Translations under genes and position numbers: made by a program
Part shown: positions 55,468 to 64,000 of the stretch, one piece after another
Position numbering within the stretch: the stretch's first letter is position 1
Layout: every line of letters starts with the position of its first letter
The notes under the pieces: model-generated
Database searches by the model: none
The model's input: the letters and a program-made list of their open reading frames with translations, nothing else
Told to the model about the DNA's origin: nothing
Assembly (NCBI RefSeq): GCF_031127875.1
Contig: NZ_JARXIA010000005.1
Coordinates: 1 to 64,000 of the forward strand
Length of the DNA: 64,000 nt
DNA from: Pelagicoccus sp. SDUM812005
GTDB lineage: Bacteria > Verrucomicrobiota > Verrucomicrobiia > Opitutales > Opitutaceae
Reading direction: 5' to 3'

Positions 55468-55629
55468 GCACGTCTCCTTCCCCCAAAAGTTCGCCTTCTC
55501 CTCAGTTCCGCCGTTGCGAACGCTCACGCCCGCAGCGACACCGGAAAGAGGCAACAGGCGAACCGCAAATAGGGACGGAAACCTTGCTCCTCACCTGACG
55601 TCGTTCCTTCGCCAGGCGTAGTGTCATTC

Positions 55630-56238
55630 ATGATACACGACTCCCTCCAGCTCATCGTCAACGAACTGAACGCTGCCCTCAAAGGCAACAACTCCGAGGA
55701 CCCCGTCTTTCTCGGCAACATAGCACAAGTCGAAAGCGGCACCTCCGAAGCGGAGAAGCAAGTCGTGCTCAGCCTCGTCAACGTCGAGGAGGAATCCTCC
55801 CTCAAGAACGGCCCCCACCATCGCCTCAAGGACGGCAAGGTCGTCTACGAAAACCGCCCCGTCCACCTCTCCCTCTACCTGCTCTTCAGCGCCAACCACA
55901 AGAACTACGCCACCGCCCTCAAGCGCCTCGAAGCCATCATCACCTTCCTCCAAGGCAAGAACGTCTTCACCGCACGAGCCGCCCCCGACCTGCAAAAGCT
56001 CTCCCGCACCCCCGAAGAGCTAGCCGGCTTTCGCATGAGCCTGGAACTCTTCTCGCTCTCCTTCGAGCAAATCAACCACCTCTGGGGCTCCCTCGGCGGC
56101 AAACAAGTCCCCTTCATCCTCTACCGGGCCCGACTCGTCAGCCTTTCCGCCGAAGAGATCCAGCGCAGCGGTCCGCCGATCACCCAAATCTCCATCGACA
56201 GCGAAGATACCTTCGCCGCTTCCGCCCATGCCCGTTGA
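55630..56238 (+). CDS. DUF4255 eCIS protein (Afp16/Pvc16-like tail terminator)
   Basis: 202 residues. The N-terminus MIHDSLQLIVNELNAAL and the NRPVHLSLYLLFSANHKNY core (read as PVHLSLYLLFSA) are typical of DUF4255, the family of Pvc16/Afp16 proteins that cap the tube and sheath of extracellular contractile injection systems. ATG 55630 gives the family start; GTG 55621 is an alternative. It is the first gene of the operon and overlaps the next gene by 11 nt. Confidence 0.87.
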   Translation: MIHDSLQLIVNELNAALKGNNSEDPVFLGNIAQVESGTSEAEKQVVLSLVNVEEESSLKNGPHHRLKDGKVVYENRPVHLSLYLLFSANHKNYATALKRLEAIITFLQGKNVFTARAAPDLQKLSRTPEELAGFRMSLELFSLSFEQINHLWGSLGGKQVPFILYRARLVSLSAEEIQRSGPPITQISIDSEDTFAASAHAR

Positions 56239-57601
56239 GATCGCCTACCAACCGCTATTCAGCGTTCAGGTCGAGCACAACTACCTGCTCGACATGGGCA
56301 GCAAGGAATTCGACTCCCTCAGCCCCACCCTGCAAAACAGGCAAAAAGCGAAGTATCGAATTTCGGAATACATCAGCTTCCAGCCGACCTTGGAGACGGA
56401 CACCCTGCTCAAGCGACACCGTTGCCGAATCCGCTCCACGCCCGAAGGTTTCCAGATCTTCGCAGCCACCACCGAGCAAGATGGAACGCGCCGCATGGAA
56501 CGTCCCCTACCACCCGACACCCCTCTCTACTTCCTCGCCCAGCTCAATAACTTCGCCTTCCTCTCGCAGGCAAACCTCCCCGAACTCCTCCGCCACCACG
56601 GCCTGCTCTTCAGCAACCGCCACGAACACACGGCCGCGAACCAGCTCCAGCTCACTCGTCCTCTCGCCGCCTTCGACCCTTCCGCGTCCTACCAGGCAGG
56701 CGACCTTTGTCTCGACGGTTCGGATACGCCGACTCAGCTCTTCGAGGCGAAAACCGATCTCGCGCCCGCCGCCTCCCCCGCTGCCCCCCAATGGCTGAGA
56801 CTGCCTGCCCCACCCTACGAGAACGGAACCGACTACCTAACCGGCGAACGAGTTCTCCACGCAGGCAAATGCTACGAAGCCAAGTCCGATGGCCAACACT
56901 CCGCTCCCCCTGACAACGCCTGGACCGAAAGCTACACGCCTCGCCTCGGCGACGGAGCCAGCAAGGCCGACCGCGCCGAGATGCGCCCCCCTCGCTTCCA
57001 GCTCAGCCTCGGTAGCGACTCGGAAATCACCTTCGCCAGAGCCATCCTAAAAGACTCGAGCAACAACACCGTTTGGCAGCAATCCTTCTTCAATCCAAAC
57101 GGCGAGCCCCTGCACTCCCTCGAGATCGACGCCAGCTCCCTCGCTCCCGACTTCTATACCCTAGAGCTCACCCAAGGAGACGGCTCCCCCATCCCCGACC
57201 AACCCAGCTCCTTCTTTCGACTCCCCGACTCGATTTCCCAAGCTCCCTTCGCCCTCGTCGAAATAAAAAGCCTCCCCTCCGACTCCACCCACGCCCTTTT
57301 CGACGAGCAAAGAAACCTCAACAGCCCCACCTTCCACATCCGCTTCCGCAAGCGCCACGCCTACTGGCGGTATCTGTTTCATGGAGACACCACCGACTAC
57401 CCTCCCGCCGATACGGGACCGCTCTCCCAGGAAGACCCGCAGGACCCCACCCGCTTCGTCACCACAGAACCACTACCGCTAACCACCGCTCCCTACACCC
57501 TTGGCAATTTCGGCGACACGGCCCTCTCGCTGCCGCCGCCCCCGCCGAACGTCACGCGCGAAGCTGACCGCGTCGTCAGCCAAACTTTCATTCATGTTTA
57601 A
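56228..57601 (+). CDS. Unrecognised eCIS-operon protein with two CBM5/12-like modules
   Basis: 457 residues. The N-terminal part (about 1-145) is mixed alpha/beta with no match I know. Residues about 153-192 and 200-233 each follow the carbohydrate-binding family 5/12 pattern: an aromatic, then G-D or G-E with a hydrophobic residue, then F/Y-E-A-K, then a closing Trp (YQAGDL ... LFEAK ... QWLRL; YLTGERV ... CYEAK ... AWTESY). The C-terminal part (about 255-457) is strand-rich. The start overlaps the DUF4255 gene by 11 nt and the sheath gene follows by 22 nt, so it is an integral operon member, perhaps a surface decoration, cap or receptor-binding component. No cysteine cluster or signal peptide is present. 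Confidence 0.7.
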   Translation: MPVEIAYQPLFSVQVEHNYLLDMGSKEFDSLSPTLQNRQKAKYRISEYISFQPTLETDTLLKRHRCRIRSTPEGFQIFAATTEQDGTRRMERPLPPDTPLYFLAQLNNFAFLSQANLPELLRHHGLLFSNRHEHTAANQLQLTRPLAAFDPSASYQAGDLCLDGSDTPTQLFEAKTDLAPAASPAAPQWLRLPAPPYENGTDYLTGERVLHAGKCYEAKSDGQHSAPPDNAWTESYTPRLGDGASKADRAEMRPPRFQLSLGSDSEITFARAILKDSSNNTVWQQSFFNPNGEPLHSLEIDASSLAPDFYTLELTQGDGSPIPDQPSSFFRLPDSISQAPFALVEIKSLPSDSTHALFDEQRNLNSPTFHIRFRKRHAYWRYLFHGDTTDYPPADTGPLSQEDPQDPTRFVTTEPLPLTTAPYTLGNFGDTALSLPPPPPNVTREADRVVSQTFIHV

Positions 57602-57623
57602 CTAACCTAAAACCGCACCGCTC

Positions 57624-59672
57624 ATGGCCTCATCCTATAAAACACCCGGCGTCTACGTTGAAGAGATCTCACTCTTTCCTCCCTCCGTCGCCCAAGTCGA
57701 AACCGCCGTCCCCGCCTTCATCGGCTACACCGCCGACCACAAGAGCCGCGGCTCGGACCTGAAACTGGTCCCCACCAAGATCCGCTCCCTCGCCGAATAC
57801 GAAGAAGCCTTCGGCAAAGCCCCAACCACCTCCGTAAACTCCGTCGACCTCGACAGCGAAAACAACGTCATCGCCGCCAAGCTCGAGAACGCCTTCATCA
57901 ACTACGACGCGATCCGCCTCTTTTTCGCCAACGGCGGCTCCAAGTGCTACATCATCTCCATCGGCAAATTCCCCGCCACCACCGCCGACGCGAACTCCGC
58001 CGACTTCCACAAGGGCCTCGCCGAACTGGAAAAGGAAGACGAGCCCACCCTCATCCTCTTCCCGGACGCCATCCACCTCAGCGACGATAAGTTCACCGCT
58101 CTCCAACAAGCCGCCCTCGAACAGGCCGCCAAGCTCGGCGACCGCTTCTGCCTGCTCGACACCAAGCCCCAGGAACGGGACGGAAACGGACAAGTTACCG
58201 TCAACTTCATCGAAAAAGTCGAAGCCTTCCGCAACGCCATCGGCGTCAAAAACCTCAAGTACGGCGCCGCCTACGGCCCCTACCTCAAGACCAATCTCGA
58301 AAAGTCTTTCAGCTACCGGGACATCAAGGGCAAAATCACCCGCGGCGGATCCCCCGTCGGACTCAAAGCCCTCACCTCCGACTCCACCGTTAGCAAGTCC
58401 ATCGAGATCCTGGACCTCGCTGTCAAGGACGTCGACGAGCTCAACACCCTCCTGCCCGGCGGCCTCGCCGCCCTCGAAACCGCTTTCCTTGAAAAGGAAA
58501 ACGACTTCAAGACCAAGATAAACGACCCCGCCGCCAACATCGGCCCTCAGCAAACCGCCTACAAGAACCTCCTCCAAAACGCCTTCGACATCCTCAAGAC
58601 CAAGGCCGAGGTCATCTCCAAAAACACCGGAAACAAGTTCGCCGCCGGAGTCACCGACTCCAAAGGCAAGCCCATCCGCACCGTACTCGACGACCTCAAA
58701 GCATCCATCAGCAGCGACGCCCCCGGCGCCCTGTATTCAGCAGCCAATACGCTGCTCGCCCTCGCCACGCACGGAGCTCGCAGCGGTGCCGACCTCAGCG
58801 GACTCAAAAAAACCGACCTCGCCACCGATTGGGGCGCCTTCGTAGACGGTGACGCCGCCGACTACTACCCCACCGATCCCGCTCCGCTCAACGGCGACGC
58901 CAAAAACGACGCCCTCCGCGCCAATATGAAGCTAGGCGCCGCCCTCGCCGCCTCCGCCTTCAAAGGCATCTACGCCGAACTCGGCAACCTGCTCGACACC
59001 GCTCGCGGCTACGAAAGCACCTACGAAAATGCCCTCGTCGCCATTTTCCCAATACTGAAGAATATCATCGATCGCACCAAGAACACCGTCACCGAACAGC
59101 CCCCGTCCGGCGCCATGGCTGGCGTCTACTCCAGCGTCGATGCCACCCGCGGCGTTCACAAGGCCCCTGCCAACGTCAGCCTCAACAACGTCATCGGCGT
59201 CGCCATGCAAGTTACCCACGAGCAACAGCAAGACCTCAACGTCGACGTCGTGGCTGGCAAATCCATCAACGTCATCCGTCCCTTCACCGGCAAAGGCATC
59301 CTCGTCTGGGGAGCCCGCACCCTGGCAGGCAACGACAACGAATGGCGCTACGTCTCCGTGCGGCGCTTCTTCAACATGGTCGAAGAGTCTACCAAGAAAG
59401 CCAGCGAGCAATTCGTCTTCGAGCCCAACGACGCAAACACCTGGACCAAGGTCAAAGCCATGATCGAGAACTTCCTCATCAACCAATGGCGAGCCGGCGC
59501 CCTCGCAGGAGCCACCCCCGAGCAAGCCTTCTTCGTCAACGTCGGCCTCGGAAAGACCATGACCGCCCAAGACGTCCTCGAAGGAAAGATGATCGTCGAA
59601 ATCGGCATGGCCGCAGTCCGTCCCGCCGAATTCATCATCCTGCGCTTCTCCCACAAGATGCAGGAAGCCTAA
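57624..59672 (+). CDS. Contractile injection system sheath protein
   Basis: 682 residues. The N-terminus YKTPGVYVEEI followed by AVPAFIGYT, and the C-terminal block (VWGARTLAG, YVSVRRFFNMVEES, QWRAGALAGATPEQAF, EIGMAAVRPAEFIILRF), are diagnostic of phage-tail-like sheath proteins. Sheath subunits form a contractile cylinder around the tube. It is about twice the length of Afp/PVC sheaths, because of a large Ala/Asp/Lys-rich middle insert (about 210-480) likely exposed on the surface. It is the only sheath gene visible, unlike the three in Afp and PVC loci. Confidence 0.93.
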   Translation: MASSYKTPGVYVEEISLFPPSVAQVETAVPAFIGYTADHKSRGSDLKLVPTKIRSLAEYEEAFGKAPTTSVNSVDLDSENNVIAAKLENAFINYDAIRLFFANGGSKCYIISIGKFPATTADANSADFHKGLAELEKEDEPTLILFPDAIHLSDDKFTALQQAALEQAAKLGDRFCLLDTKPQERDGNGQVTVNFIEKVEAFRNAIGVKNLKYGAAYGPYLKTNLEKSFSYRDIKGKITRGGSPVGLKALTSDSTVSKSIEILDLAVKDVDELNTLLPGGLAALETAFLEKENDFKTKINDPAANIGPQQTAYKNLLQNAFDILKTKAEVISKNTGNKFAAGVTDSKGKPIRTVLDDLKASISSDAPGALYSAANTLLALATHGARSGADLSGLKKTDLATDWGAFVDGDAADYYPTDPAPLNGDAKNDALRANMKLGAALAASAFKGIYAELGNLLDTARGYESTYENALVAIFPILKNIIDRTKNTVTEQPPSGAMAGVYSSVDATRGVHKAPANVSLNNVIGVAMQVTHEQQQDLNVDVVAGKSINVIRPFTGKGILVWGARTLAGNDNEWRYVSVRRFFNMVEESTKKASEQFVFEPNDANTWTKVKAMIENFLINQWRAGALAGATPEQAFFVNVGLGKTMTAQDVLEGKMIVEIGMAAVRPAEFIILRFSHKMQEA

Positions 59673-59773
59673 GAAATCTCCTTCTGCATCCAATATTTAA
59701 CTACAGCAGCAAATCTGCGTCTACCGGAGCAATCTGCTAAATTACTCAAAGCTTCCCAACCCACTCACCACCC

Positions 59774-60211
59774 ATGACAGAATATCCACTCACCAAATTC
59801 CACTTCGTCGTCTCCTGGGGCGGCTCCCGCATCGGCTTCACCGAAGTTTCAGGACTCGAAGCGGAAACCGAAGTCATCGAATACCGCGAAGGCTCCAGCT
59901 CCGAATACTCGAAGATCAAGATGCCCGGCATGCAGAAGTACGCCAACATCACCCTCAAGCGCGGCACCTTCCTAGGCGACAACGACTTCTTCGAGTGGTG
60001 GAAAACCACTCGCATCCTCGGCAAGCCGGAGCGACGCGACCTCATCATCAGCCTGCTCAACGAAGAGCACGCCCCCGTCATGAACTGGAAGGTCAAGAAC
60101 GCCTTCCCCACCAAGGTACAAGCCACCGACCTCAAAGCGGACGGAAGCGAAGTCGCCATCGAAACCCTGGAACTCGCCCACGAAGGCATCGAGATGGAAG
60201 CGATCGCCTAA
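59774..60211 (+). CDS. Contractile injection system inner tube protein
   Basis: 145 residues, T4 gp19/Pvc1-like. It has the typical KFHFVVSWGG and GFTEVSGLEAE start, GMQKYANITLKRGTF, and the MNWKVKNAFPTKV end. Hexamers stack to form the rigid tube pushed out on contraction. It follows the sheath gene by about 100 nt. No cargo-specific extension is seen. Confidence 0.92.
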   Translation: MTEYPLTKFHFVVSWGGSRIGFTEVSGLEAETEVIEYREGSSSEYSKIKMPGMQKYANITLKRGTFLGDNDFFEWWKTTRILGKPERRDLIISLLNEEHAPVMNWKVKNAFPTKVQATDLKADGSEVAIETLELAHEGIEMEAIA

Positions 60212-60243
60212 CCCGCGCTCGCCTCCCATTCCCGACCTGACCT

Positions 60244-60687
60244 ATGGATCGCTTCGGATTCCTTGGAGCATTCCACTTCCGCGTCGAGTTTCTCGGCCTC
60301 GGTGGTGATTCCGTGGATACACGCTTCCAGTCCGTTTCCGGCCTGAGCTCCACCATCGAGACCGACTCCCTGCGCGAAGGCGGAGAAAACCGCTTCGAGC
60401 ACGCCCTGCCCAATCGCACCTCCTACAGCGACCTCGTGCTCAAGCGCGGCTTCGTCACCTCCTCCGCCCTGCTCGATTGGTTCTCCAACGCCATGCAAAC
60501 CCTCGAGATCTATCCCAAGGACCTCAACGTCGTCCTGCTCAACGAAAAGCACGAACCGGCCATGACCTGGAAAGTCACCCACGCCTGGCCCAAGAAATGG
60601 GCCATCGGCGACCTCGACGCCGAAACCAGCGCTATCGCCATCGAAACCCTAGAACTCGGCTACCACGAATTCCGCCTCGAAAAATAA
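60244..60687 (+). CDS. Second tube protein (Pvc5/Afp5-like tube initiator)
   Basis: 147 residues of the same gp19 family but divergent from the first copy: FHFRVEFLGLG, FQSVSGLSS, LKRGFVTSSALLDWF and MTWKVTHAWPKKW. In Afp and PVC particles a second tube-like protein joins the tube to the spike, which is the likely role. It lies 32 nt after the first tube gene. Confidence 0.9.
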   Translation: MDRFGFLGAFHFRVEFLGLGGDSVDTRFQSVSGLSSTIETDSLREGGENRFEHALPNRTSYSDLVLKRGFVTSSALLDWFSNAMQTLEIYPKDLNVVLLNEKHEPAMTWKVTHAWPKKWAIGDLDAETSAIAIETLELGYHEFRLEK

Positions 60688-60731
60688 CAACCCGCTCGCG
60701 CCACGCCGCAGAGACCGATCACTCCCCCCCA

Positions 60732-60920
60732 ATGACCATAGAAATCCGCCAACTCATCATCCGCGCCTCGCTCACCGACGAGCCCGACGCCAAGGCTCCC
60801 CAAACCGGAGCCCAAGCCCGAGCTGGCGCCAACCCCAAGCAAAACGGCCAAAAGGCGGAAATCGTCCGCGAAGCCGTCGAGCAAGTCATGCAAATCCTCC
60901 GGGAAGAAAAGGAACGCTAG
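60732..60920 (+). CDS. Small DUF5908 eCIS protein
   Basis: 62 residues. The N-terminus MTIEIRQLIIRASL followed by a flexible Ala/Gly/Lys linker and a C-terminal helix matches DUF5908, small proteins (about 50-65 residues) found between tube and LysM genes in contractile injection loci. Role unknown; probably a baseplate accessory like Afp6. The ATG lies 44 nt after the previous stop. Confidence 0.75.
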   Translation: MTIEIRQLIIRASLTDEPDAKAPQTGAQARAGANPKQNGQKAEIVREAVEQVMQILREEKER

Positions 60921-60923
60921 GCC

Positions 60924-61628
60924 ATGGGCATGGGCAAACTAGAGAAAATGGAGATCACCGCGTTCAGCGACGCGGAATTCTCCCAACCCGTCCCGGACGG
61001 ACGCTTCGTCACCCAGGTCAACCCCGAAAAGGTCAGCCTCAAGTACGAGATCGAAATCCCCGAAGACCAAGCCCAAGGCACCTCCGGCTCGGAAGCTCGC
61101 TTCGGCAAGATCAAGCCCCAAGAGCTCAGCTTCGAATTCATGTTCGACAGCACCGGAGCCATCCCCAACCCCGACGGATCCTCCCCCATCAACGACGACG
61201 GCGTCTACGAACGCGTGAAGCACTTCATGTCAGTCGTCTACGAATACAACGGCGAAGAACATAAGCCCAACAACGTGCAAATCGCCTGGGGACGCCTCCT
61301 CTTCAAGTGCGTCCTCAAAACCGTCAACATCGACTACCGCCTCTTCCGCCCCGACGGCACTCCCCTGCGGGCCGTCGCCAGCGCCAGCTTCCAAGGCTCC
61401 GTCGAGGAACGCCTCCGCACCGCCATCGAAGCCCCCGCTTCCCCCGACATCACCCACACCCGCACCGTACGCGACGGCGAAACCCTCCAGCAACTTGTCA
61501 CCGAAGTGTATGGACATCCCAAATACGCCATCCCAGTCGCCCGAGCCAACCGACTCCCCAACCCACGCCGCCTTAACACCGGCCAAATTCTCCACTTTCC
61601 GCCCATCGTAGGTTCCAAGAATGCCTAA
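60924..61628 (+). CDS. LysM-containing tube/baseplate adaptor (Afp7/Pvc7-like)
   Basis: 234 residues. The N-terminal domain resembles phage gp53/Pvc7-type baseplate proteins (VNPEKVSLKYEIEI, ELSFEFMFDSTG). A C-terminal LysM module (about 180-228; RTVRDGETLQQL, GQILHFPPI) follows. Such proteins link the tube end to the spike hub. The start is three nt after the DUF5908 gene, and the end overlaps the VgrG-like gene by eight nt. Confidence 0.87.
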   Translation: MGMGKLEKMEITAFSDAEFSQPVPDGRFVTQVNPEKVSLKYEIEIPEDQAQGTSGSEARFGKIKPQELSFEFMFDSTGAIPNPDGSSPINDDGVYERVKHFMSVVYEYNGEEHKPNNVQIAWGRLLFKCVLKTVNIDYRLFRPDGTPLRAVASASFQGSVEERLRTAIEAPASPDITHTRTVRDGETLQQLVTEVYGHPKYAIPVARANRLPNPRRLNTGQILHFPPIVGSKNA

Positions 61629-63369
61629 CCCACGCATCGTCCCCTCCGCCGCTCCCAAGGACGTCGTCACCGCCACTATCAAGGTCGACGGCAACGCCCT
61701 TTCGCGCACCTTCGAAATCGCAGCCGTCAGCGTGGTCAAAAACATCGGACGCATCCCCTTCGCCCGCATCGAACTCTACGACGGCGACCCCGCCACCGAA
61801 ACCTTCCCCGCTTGCGACTCCCAAGAGCTCGCTCCCGGCGGCGAAATCGAAATCCACGCCGGCTACCGGTCTAGCGAATCCCCCATTTTCAAAGGCATAC
61901 TCGTCAGCCACTCCCTCCGGATCCGCGCCTCCGGCCGCCCCATCCTCACCCTCGTCTGCCGCCACCCCCTCTACCAGTCCACCCTCACCCGACGCTCCCG
62001 CAGCTTCCAGGAACTCACCGACTCCGACGCCATTTCGGAAATCCTCGGAGCCTACGGCGTATCCATCGATGCGAATACAAGCGAGGTCACCCACGAAAGT
62101 CTCTTCCAATACCACTGCACCGACTGGGACTTCTGCCTCGCTCGCGCCCAAGCCAATAGCCTCTTGCTCATTCCCACCGACGACGGAGCCACCCTCGCCC
62201 CCTTGGACTCCAGCCAAACACACATACTCCAGCTCCAGTACGGCGCCACGATTTACGAATTAGACCTCGAGCTCGATATCCGCACCCAAGCCACCGAAGT
62301 CACCGCCAGCGCTTGGGACCCAGCTTCGCAAGAAGCCCTCGAAGCGACCGCCAGCGAGCCAGAACTCCCCACAGCCGGCAACCAATCCGCCACCGACCTC
62401 GCCAGCTTGCACGGCCAATCCAGCCACTTCCACCACGCCGGAGCCGTAAGCCAAGAGGAGCTGGACGCCTTCGCCTCCGGACAACTGCTCCTGCAGCGCC
62501 TCGGAGCTCGCGTCGGCCGCGTCCGCTGCATCGGCACCTCCGACCCCGTCCCCGGCCAACTCCTCGACATCGCCGGTATCTCCGACCGCTTCAGCGGCAG
62601 CTACCTCATCTCCGGAGTACGCCACACCCTTAGCAACGGCAGCTGGTACACCGACCTCCAAGTCGGTCTCCTGCCACAAGAAATCCAATCCAGCTCCCAC
62701 GCCATCGCCGCGCCTGCCGCCGCTGCCATGTTGCCGCACGCCAACGGCCTTCATATCGGCATCGTGGAAGCCCTCGAAGGCGACCCCCAGAGCGAGTTCC
62801 GCATCCAAGTCAAACTGCCCACCCAAGGCGAAGACGCTGCCCCCTACTGGGCTCGCCTCGCCTCCATCGATGCCGGCGACGCTCGCGGCGCTTTCCTGTA
62901 TCCAGAGATCGGCGACGAAGTTGTGGTCGCCTTCTTCGACCACGACCCCCGCCATCCCGTCGTCCTCGGCAGCCTCTACAGCAGCGCCCGCCCCGCCCCT
63001 CTCGAGCCCTCCGACGACAACCACGAAAAAGGTTTCTTCTCCCGCTCGGAAATGAAGCTCCACTTCAACGACGACCTCGTGTCCGCCACCCTCGAAACCC
63101 CTAACGGAAATATCCTTCAGCTCAGCGAAGACGAAGGCGGCATCCTCCTCGAAGACGAAAACGGAAACAAGATCACCCTCAGCTCCGACGGCATCGAACT
63201 CTCCAGCGCCGCCGATCTCGTCCTTACCGCCAGCGGAGACGTTAGCATCGAAGGCACTAACGTCACCCACAAAGCCAACGCCCAATTCACCGCCGAAGGC
63301 GCCTCCGCCGCCGAACTCAAAGCCTCCGGCAATACCACCATCAAAGGCGCCCTCGTCCAAATCAACTAA
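61621..63369 (+). CDS. VgrG/gp5-like spike hub protein (Afp8/Pvc8-like)
   Basis: 582 residues. The gp27-like hub part (about 1-370) contains IPFARIELYDGDP and the SRSFQELTDSDAISEIL segment. An OB-fold follows (about 375-460; GIVEALEGDPQSEFRIQVKLP, and GDEVVVAFFDHDPRHPVVLG), then a C-terminal beta-helix needle with regular repeats (about 470-580). It forms the piercing spike of the particle. There is no effector extension after the needle. In an eCIS operon it should be called the spike protein rather than a T6SS VgrG. Confidence 0.9.
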   Translation: MPNPRIVPSAAPKDVVTATIKVDGNALSRTFEIAAVSVVKNIGRIPFARIELYDGDPATETFPACDSQELAPGGEIEIHAGYRSSESPIFKGILVSHSLRIRASGRPILTLVCRHPLYQSTLTRRSRSFQELTDSDAISEILGAYGVSIDANTSEVTHESLFQYHCTDWDFCLARAQANSLLLIPTDDGATLAPLDSSQTHILQLQYGATIYELDLELDIRTQATEVTASAWDPASQEALEATASEPELPTAGNQSATDLASLHGQSSHFHHAGAVSQEELDAFASGQLLLQRLGARVGRVRCIGTSDPVPGQLLDIAGISDRFSGSYLISGVRHTLSNGSWYTDLQVGLLPQEIQSSSHAIAAPAAAAMLPHANGLHIGIVEALEGDPQSEFRIQVKLPTQGEDAAPYWARLASIDAGDARGAFLYPEIGDEVVVAFFDHDPRHPVVLGSLYSSARPAPLEPSDDNHEKGFFSRSEMKLHFNDDLVSATLETPNGNILQLSEDEGGILLEDENGNKITLSSDGIELSSAADLVLTASGDVSIEGTNVTHKANAQFTAEGASAAELKASGNTTIKGALVQIN

Positions 63370-63408
63370 CCCCCTTCATCCCTCATAATTCATCCTTCAT
63401 TCTTAAAA

Positions 63409-63702
63409 ATGCCTCCCGCCGCCCGCATCACCGACACCCACGTCTGCCCCATGGTCGATCCCTCCACCGGCGTTCCCCATGTCGGAGGCCCCATCCTGCC
63501 GCCGGGCGAAGCCACCGTGCTCATCGGCGGCATGCCCGCCGCTACGCTGGGCGACTCCTGTATTTGCGTCGGCCCTACAGCCAGCATCATCGCCGGCTCC
63601 TCCACCGTAATGATCGGCGGCTCTCCCGCCGCTCGCATGGGCGATTCCACCGCCCACGGCGGCAGCATCGTATCCGGAGAGCCCACCGTGCTCATCAACT
63701 AA
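63409..63702 (+). CDS. PAAR-domain spike tip protein
   Basis: 97 residues, a single PAAR domain: an N-terminal ITDTHVCPM, repeated G-x-P-A-A-x-x-G-D segments (GGMPAATLGD, GGSPAARMGD), and His/Cys residues (His19, Cys21 and His near 82) able to hold the tip metal. It sharpens the VgrG-like needle. No toxin extension is fused. It lies between the spike and gp25 genes. Confidence 0.92.
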   Translation: MPPAARITDTHVCPMVDPSTGVPHVGGPILPPGEATVLIGGMPAATLGDSCICVGPTASIIAGSSTVMIGGSPAARMGDSTAHGGSIVSGEPTVLIN

Positions 63703-63725
63703 TTCAAACGAGACCGCTCCCACCT

Positions 63726-64000
63726 ATGTCTGACCAAAATCTACCCGCCTTTATCGGAACCGGCTGGGCCTTCCCGCCGGACTTCCTCATGGGCAGCCAC
63801 ACCGTCCGCCTCAGCGACGGCATCGAAGACATCGAACAATCCCTCCGCATCCTCCTTTCCACCCTCCCGGGAGAGCGAGCCATGCGCCCCGACTACGGCT
63901 GCGATCTCACCCCCCTGCTCTTCGAACCGCTAACCACCACCCTGCGTACCGTCACCGAAGATCGCGTAAAAACCTCCATCTACCTCCACGAGCCTCGCAT
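63726..64000 (+). CDS. GPW/gp25-like baseplate wedge protein (partial)
   Basis: The first 91 codons are inside the window; the 3' end is missing. It has the gp25 family features: an N-terminal GTGWAFPPDF segment, then IEDIEQSLRILLSTLPGER and the MRPDYGCDLTPLLFEP motif (PDYG core). gp25/Afp9 proteins start sheath assembly at the baseplate. It lies 23 nt after the PAAR gene, which shows that the operon continues to the right. Confidence 0.9.
   Translation, partial: MSDQNLPAFIGTGWAFPPDFLMGSHTVRLSDGIEDIEQSLRILLSTLPGERAMRPDYGCDLTPLLFEPLTTTLRTVTEDRVKTSIYLHEPR

Follow-up and report, generated by a model that had tools for sequence, protein, structure and literature searches.

Pelagicoccus sp. SDUM812005 carries a gene cluster for a contractile injection system, probably an extracellular one (eCIS), at the right-hand end of the stretch of DNA analyzed here. 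This stretch (the window) comprises bases 1-64000 of a 292-kb contig (NZ_JARXIA010000005.1; C74) belonging to a genome of 6.65 Mb that is rated 99.5% complete. We have added to the analysis 39 kb to the right of the window, where the contig numbering continues that of the window. The locus contains 16 genes and reaches contig base ~80.8 kb, past the window edge; ten of the genes start in the window (spanning 55621-64145) and six are located at contig 64142-80837. Taken together, they very probably encode a complete injection system of clade Ib, i.e., of the type known from Algoriphagus machipongonensis (AlgoCIS), whose tube load would be a 1663-residue protein that we interpret as an in-frame fusion of two cargo units.

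The ten genes named in a preliminary description of the window were all found in the order and at the positions given there, with Pfam or profile matches for their families. It had also noted that the locus leaves the window, and indeed the six further genes on the same contig are of the kinds that it proposed to seek to the right, i.e., two baseplate proteins, a fibre, a tape measure, an AAA+ ATPase, and a toxin-like cargo. The gene set, its order, and its homologies are the following (lengths in amino acids, aa).

55621..56238, strand +: cap protein, Pvc16/Alg16A-like, 205 aa (Pfam Pvc16_N/DUF4255, 1.7e-35; alternative ATG at 55630)
56228..57601, strand +: cap adaptor, Alg16B-like, 457 aa; the middle region resembles CBM5/12 (ten-homologue profile)
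57624..59672, strand +: single sheath, 682 aa, insert at ~225-490 (family match 6.2e-15; phmmer to solved sheaths)
59774..60211, strand +: inner tube protein 1 (Phage_T4_gp19, 3.6e-47)
60244..60687, strand +: inner tube protein 2 (Phage_T4_gp19, 1.1e-41)
60732..60920, strand +: small DUF5908 protein (DUF5908, 9.4e-16)
60924..61628, strand +: CIS_tube adaptor of LysM type, Alg7-like by position (CIS_tube, 5e-53)
61621..63369, strand +: VgrG-like spike, Alg8-like by position (Phage_base_V, 1.3e-20; vgr_GE, 9.3e-58)
63409..63702, strand +: PAAR spike tip (PAAR_motif, 1.1e-24)
63726..64000, strand +: gp25 sheath initiator, incomplete in the window, gene end at contig 64145 (GPW_gp25, 1.1e-23 for the whole gene)
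Contig 64142-67273, outside the window: Alg11-like baseplate protein, 1043 aa (homology 7.5e-134)
Contig 67270-69885, outside the window: Alg12-like baseplate protein, 871 aa (homology 1.5e-124 and 6.3e-118)
Contig 69934-72696, outside the window: Alg19-type fibre, 920 aa (1.6e-48 to the AlgoCIS fibre)
Contig 72693-74135, outside the window: CIS_TMP tape measure, 480 aa (CIS_TMP, 4.4e-92)
Contig 74405-79396, outside the window: cargo, 1663 aa (eCIS_core, 4.6e-32)
Contig 79500-80837, outside the window, strand -: AAA+ ATPase (1.6e-26)

Sheath, cap adaptor and fibre

The single sheath gene of 682 residues with a long insert, as previously described, encodes a protein that aligns over residues 3-681 with the AlgoCIS sheath (7adz_2A, 692 residues; phmmer, 7.6e-133). 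Its best solved relative is All3325, the sheath of the Anabaena thylakoid contractile injection system (tCIS) (3e-136); the tCIS sheath has 484 aa. According to PMC8894135, a single protein forms the AlgoCIS sheath, and of its four domains III and IV face outwards. As this 692-residue sheath is likewise single and large, the design seen here is a known one and not the oddity that it had first seemed. One sheath gene was likewise present in each stretch fetched for the 22 named relatives, which were collected by a sheath-pattern scan, one stretch for each. The sheath had also been described as about twice the size of those of the antifeeding prophage (Afp) and the Photorhabdus virulence cassettes (PVC); this applies to Afp2 and Pvc2 (354 and 355 aa), but it is only ~1.5-1.7 times as long as Afp3, Afp4, Pvc3, and Pvc4 (410-451 aa).

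The sheaths of the named relatives measure 445-488 aa in 19/22 cases and 643 and 741 aa in two others, while the gene of an Akkermansiaceae metagenome-assembled genome (MAG) is split over two reading frames (L004). These frames overlap (L004 1-1822) and lie on a contig of low coverage, so an assembly error is likely. The sheath phylogeny proposed in the preliminary description was built from 25 rows, AlgoCIS not among them. It groups this sheath with those of the congener G007 and of the Akkermansiaceae (Verrucomicrobiota) MAG, its nearest named relative (support 100/99). Niabella and Spirosoma, with their long sheaths, adjoin this group with a support of 87/91, which does not exceed the star threshold of the tool, and three other congeners have sheaths that fall into a separate clade (100/99).

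The second gene was present at the place given for it, although listed as unknown, and by homology it encodes a cap adaptor. A profile made from 10 homologues matched All3326 of the tCIS (1.1e-26) and the AlgoCIS cap adaptor (8e-26), and the match obtained with the single sequence was weaker (5e-4). The protein is longer than its AlgoCIS counterpart (457 vs 284 aa), and its identity to the G007 protein (63%) is lower than that of its neighbours (cap 94%, sheath 93%). Residues 197-238 match CBM_5_12 (5.8e-5). By eye, there is a second CBM5/12-like copy at ~148-190, and the Niabella cap adaptor has one such stretch as well. We have considered this module as a new anchor and rejected the idea, since the match is under the Pfam curated cut-off and the profile aligns with All3326 across the region.

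The solved structures of clade Ib are the best matches of the sheath, the cap adaptor, and the Alg11, Alg12, and Alg19 relatives, with All3325, All3326, and All3315 of the tCIS ranking first for their counterparts and All3317 and All3314 second. The Alg11-like protein is of nearly the same length as that of AlgoCIS (1043 vs 1050 aa), its strongest aligned stretch being the C-terminal half. Residues 16-538 of the fibre align with residues 9-552 of the AlgoCIS fibre (9wt0_a; whole sequence, 1.6e-48), and there is a further alignment with residues 751-806 of this 1443-aa protein; the match to All3314 of the tCIS gave 1.1e-36. The N-terminal shoulder and neck part of Alg19 is therefore present by homology, whereas the protein stops at 920 aa and, judging from this length, probably lacks most of the C-terminal part. 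In AlgoCIS, the fibre is described as a trimer at the six baseplate vertices, with a flexible C-terminal part that binds bacterial surfaces (PMC13314943).

The short fibre could alternatively be the docking crown of a membrane-anchored clade Ib system, similar to the tCIS or to type VI secretion system (T6SS) subtype iv, that acts at contact or lysis. We consider this unlikely. It is true that the fibre is shorter than those of AlgoCIS and the tCIS (920 vs 1443 and 1476 aa), but its length is variable elsewhere, with a frame of 735 aa in Niabella, frames of 1057-1474 aa in nine other relatives, and a fragment in the Akkermansiaceae MAG (a fibre match was obtained in 11/14 genomes examined). 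Because of this variation, we have not read the short fibre as a sign of anchoring, nor treated the long C-terminal part as defining clade Ib. Hydropathy means over 19 residues exceed the customary Kyte-Doolittle cut-off of 1.6 in the Alg12-like protein (2.01) and in the PAAR protein (1.62); however, the former stretch lies inside the alignment with known baseplate proteins, which makes a transmembrane role doubtful. The shoulder of Alg19 has been reported to resemble TssK (PMC13314943), a point in favor of anchoring. A Cis13 fibre carrying a transmembrane helix is part of the tCIS (PMC8894136); none of the 16 genes is left here for such a fibre, although no search was aimed at Cis13 by sequence. 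Moreover, TssM (IcmF_C) is absent genome-wide, in a search in which E. coli was the positive among 14 control genomes and which did not cover TssJ and TssL. Within this scope, the statement that no T6SS membrane genes are seen stands, and a canonical T6SS (i-iii) was rejected.

A degenerate prophage or an R-type tailocin would share the phage-derived sheath, tube, and baseplate genes, but its probability is negligible. The genes found downstream contradict it, the eCIS genes are present (Pvc16, DUF5908, CIS_TMP, and eCIS core), and no phage head, terminase, or portal family appeared among the 12 flanking proteins examined, ten of which belong to ordinary cellular families. A search of viral contigs for the sheath gave six pattern matches without any confirmed relative, and a search of them for the cargo found nothing. 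The downstream gene set was thus found, and within the scope of these searches neither of the gene sets that would contradict the initial interpretation as a released or anchored particle of the Afp/PVC/AlgoCIS type was encountered, so that this interpretation is supported.

The presence of CIS_TMP and eCIS_core and a gene order like those of Niabella and Spirosoma support the assignment to clade Ib, of which the locus shows one long AlgoCIS-like sheath, a cap adaptor, the N-terminal part of Alg19, and a DUF4157/eCIS-core cargo. Afp and PVC (clade Ia) share the gene logic of sheath, tube, spike, PAAR, gp25, baseplate, and AAA+ ATPase. Unlike this locus, whose sheath gene is the only match in the genome, they have several sheath genes and a longer cap protein, and the comparison in PMC8894135 gives the cap adaptor and the Alg19 homologue as absent from them. 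The machine is thus a well-preserved injector of an already known type, and eCIS were already known in Verrucomicrobia from Candidatus Udaeobacter copiosus (PMC8213781 Table 1). Its least ordinary component is the long cargo protein.

A cargo protein with two putative units

The 1663-aa cargo protein is the sole eCIS-core match of the genome. Its residues 1-1348 resemble a normal cargo, with a leader, the eCIS-core domain (residues 117-194), a long spacer, and a nuclease-like domain. The last of these is a match to the DNA/RNA non-specific endonucleases at residues 1094-1162 (6.6e-6), and the C-terminus is an M35 aspzincin domain (residues 1537-1661, 1.9e-33) that aligns with solved M35-type endopeptidases (1.1e-27). 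The catalytic-type motif words HELTH, GGHL, and HELAH occur at 183, 1102, and 1618, respectively. For DUF4157, an HExxH motif is named in PMC8213781, which also describes the architecture of DUF4157, long linker, and toxin. By eye, the spacer (~200-960; contig 75000-77300) looks helical and contains repeated segments at ~210-600, and residues 117-688 align at 39% with a cargo of an uncultured Flavobacteriaceae. In a hydropathy scan, a stretch near residue 807 was hydrophobic enough for membrane entry.

We have scanned with Pfam the large cargoes of six relatives, the second cargo of Niabella (373 aa) not being among them. Two of the six combine the core with the endonuclease, namely the 1675-aa cargo of the uncultured Flavobacteriaceae, with 31.3 bits, and the 1386-aa cargo of Chitinophaga skermanii, whose 24.3 bits are under the cut-off; none of the six has a Pfam M35 match. 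The same parts are found in the same arrangement, in one frame, in the 1647-aa cargo of G007; in sequence, this in-frame arrangement is thus shared by two genomes. AlgoCIS also has DUF4157 cargo, and its Cgo1 has a predicted C-terminal metalloprotease (PMC8894135), but it has two cargo genes, whereas the nuclease-like and M35 domains are here in one protein.

A second cargo-like leader likely begins at the internal Met1349 (codon at contig base 78449), in front of the M35 metalloprotease. The segment contains a basic, arginine-rich start, FFGN..FFSP, EEEE/QAK repeats, and CDCGG, and the same order of elements is found at the N-termini of the cargoes of relatives. From Met1349 on, 25/26 and 36/40 columns are identical to G007, compared with only 13/41 and 30/60 in the linker before it. 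We have defined a rule for internal methionines (hydropathy < -0.9, charge >= +3, two FF pairs), with our own thresholds on the hydropathy and charge windows that PMC11297309 gives for eCIS signal peptides. Met1349 alone passes among the 21 internal methionines of the cargo, and in 13 cargo proteins of relatives only 1/237 passes, i.e., the orthologous methionine of G007. A 65-residue leader profile also ranked these two sites first among the locus proteins tested.

The FF pair itself occurs within the first 60 residues in 20 of the 23 non-redundant DUF4157 leaders from genomes with related loci (35/39 in all) and in 9/194 structural open reading frames (ORFs) of the named loci; two pairs were found in 15/23 and 0/194, respectively. 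The leader set comes from 43 rows, of which six were dropped (fragments, second cores, and wrong starts), two of these proteins being restored with their true start; it includes L089 and L090, both without FF, and L100, which is short and has FF. Two further checks were made around Met1349. By eye, it has no clear Shine-Dalgarno motif, but only few of the gene starts at contig 55621-78449 have one, and thus, this check says nothing on internal initiation. The share of synonymous changes (8/28 identical residues) does not stand out from that in other windows (0.24-0.53).

Whether the cargo is a tandem payload, i.e., two complete units in one chain, each with its own loading leader, that delivers a nuclease and an M35 protease together by means of a lineage-specific FF leader, is in our judgment an even question. 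Statistically, the second leader presents a mixed picture, and several results weigh against this interpretation or against that of the whole system. The 65-residue profile gives Met1349 4.5 bits, less than composition shuffles of the region can reach (8.5), and its score with a 45-residue profile is negative. We chose the thresholds of the rule with leaders already in view, and of the 20 leaders in the set of that stage only 7 pass. The leaders were dereplicated but the structural ORF control was not. FF was present in none of 12 plasmid DUF4157 proteins (a hold-out fetched from 90 records found), which makes it lineage-bound at best and not a signal common to DUF4157 proteins. No free-standing unit B, i.e., the second leader with the M35 domain, was detected in 395 genomes of the phylum of Niabella (without positive control); in 372 genomes of its own order, a sample evidently without G007, it was found only in its own genome, and seven plasmid records contained the M35 part only. 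The nuclease match (26.8 bits) is just below the Pfam cut-off of 27. As to the structure models, that of the sheath, with a mostly helical predicted insert, has middling confidence (mean pLDDT 62.4) and served solely to judge how helical the insert is and as input to a fold search, and that of the cap adaptor was poor and was discarded (mean pLDDT 50.7).

The performance of the profile against shuffles and the lack of a separate unit B in these genome and plasmid searches would also fit a single multidomain toxin, in which the FF/EEEE segment (1349-1490) is a basic-then-acidic linker that is leader-like by composition. This explanation appears rather doubtful to us, since the order of basic, FF-FF, and acidic elements begins exactly at a methionine, the conservation boundary in G007 falls on the same residue, and the N-termini of relatives show the same order.

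If the tandem payload is real, a single tube would carry both the nuclease and the M35 metalloprotease, and the FF leader would be a recognizable loading signal of this injector lineage, whereas PMC11297309 reports to have detected no specific conserved sequence in eCIS signal peptides. The cargo can be seen as a natural experiment on cargo recognition, with the FF leader in 20/23 and a similar segment inside a putatively fused protein. We did not find an FF leader or a two-unit eCIS protein described, which is weak evidence, as the literature search was barely aimed at them and covered few subscription papers and no preprints.

Proposed mechanism, relatives and genomic neighborhood

How the particle is assembled, released, loaded, and fired, what it targets, and what its enzymes do are inferences, in the case of assembly and firing by analogy with AlgoCIS. 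One long sheath would surround the tube, closed by the cap and the cap adaptor, on an Alg11/Alg12 baseplate bearing the spike, the PAAR tip, and trimeric Alg19-type fibres. Following the sequence described for AlgoCIS in PMC13314943, fibre contact would open the cage and widen the iris, and then the sheath would contract and the cap adaptor would be lost, driving the tube into the target. The 1663-residue protein would be the tube load, with the FF leader, eCIS core, long spacer, and nuclease-like domain as unit A, and the leader at Met1349 and the M35 metalloprotease as unit B. Both enzymes may be delivered jointly from one chain, or as two cargoes if Met1349 starts translation; such a start, or a protease cut between the units, is a possibility. 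AlgoCIS cargo proteins are reported to fill the tube lumen, with contracted particles lacking Cgo1 and having reduced Cgo2, and growth inhibition by Cgo1 to be independent of its metalloprotease motifs (PMC8894135). Thus, enzyme activity is not to be assumed as the toxic principle.

Nearly the same gene order is found in Niabella sp. (L005/G116; sheath 643 aa, cap adaptor 440 aa) and Spirosoma arboris (L007/G118; sheath 741 aa, cap adaptor 357 aa). They differ in that the main cargo has no Pfam M35 match in either, the sheath identities are 50 and 44%, respectively, the AAA gene of Niabella is elsewhere, and S. arboris gave no PAAR match.

In a genus sample of eight genomes, this sheath is present in two, a different one in three, and none in three, and the same upstream flank together with this system was found in one of the seven congeners examined. 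The congeners G001, G002, and G005 (L029-L031) carry the other sheath lineage (520-544 aa as read) with no eCIS-core match, and hence there are two contractile injection system lineages within one genus. Identity to G007 is only 50% for the tape measure and 77-98% for the other structural proteins except the cap adaptor. The AAA+ ATPase of G007 (G007:C35:527733-529055; 92% identical) is 81 kb from its locus, whereas here the gene is directly behind the cargo. The upstream flanks of both genomes are syntenic, but no synteny was seen for the downstream flank over the stretch compared.

The next gene after the AAA+ ATPase encodes an NMT1-like substrate-binding (transport) protein. It belongs to a group at contig 81126-91979 (L002/L003) that also includes genes for a NikR-like regulator, a DUF1989 protein, and urea-carboxylase-like and allophanate-hydrolase-like proteins; the eCIS thus probably has a cluster for urea use beside it.

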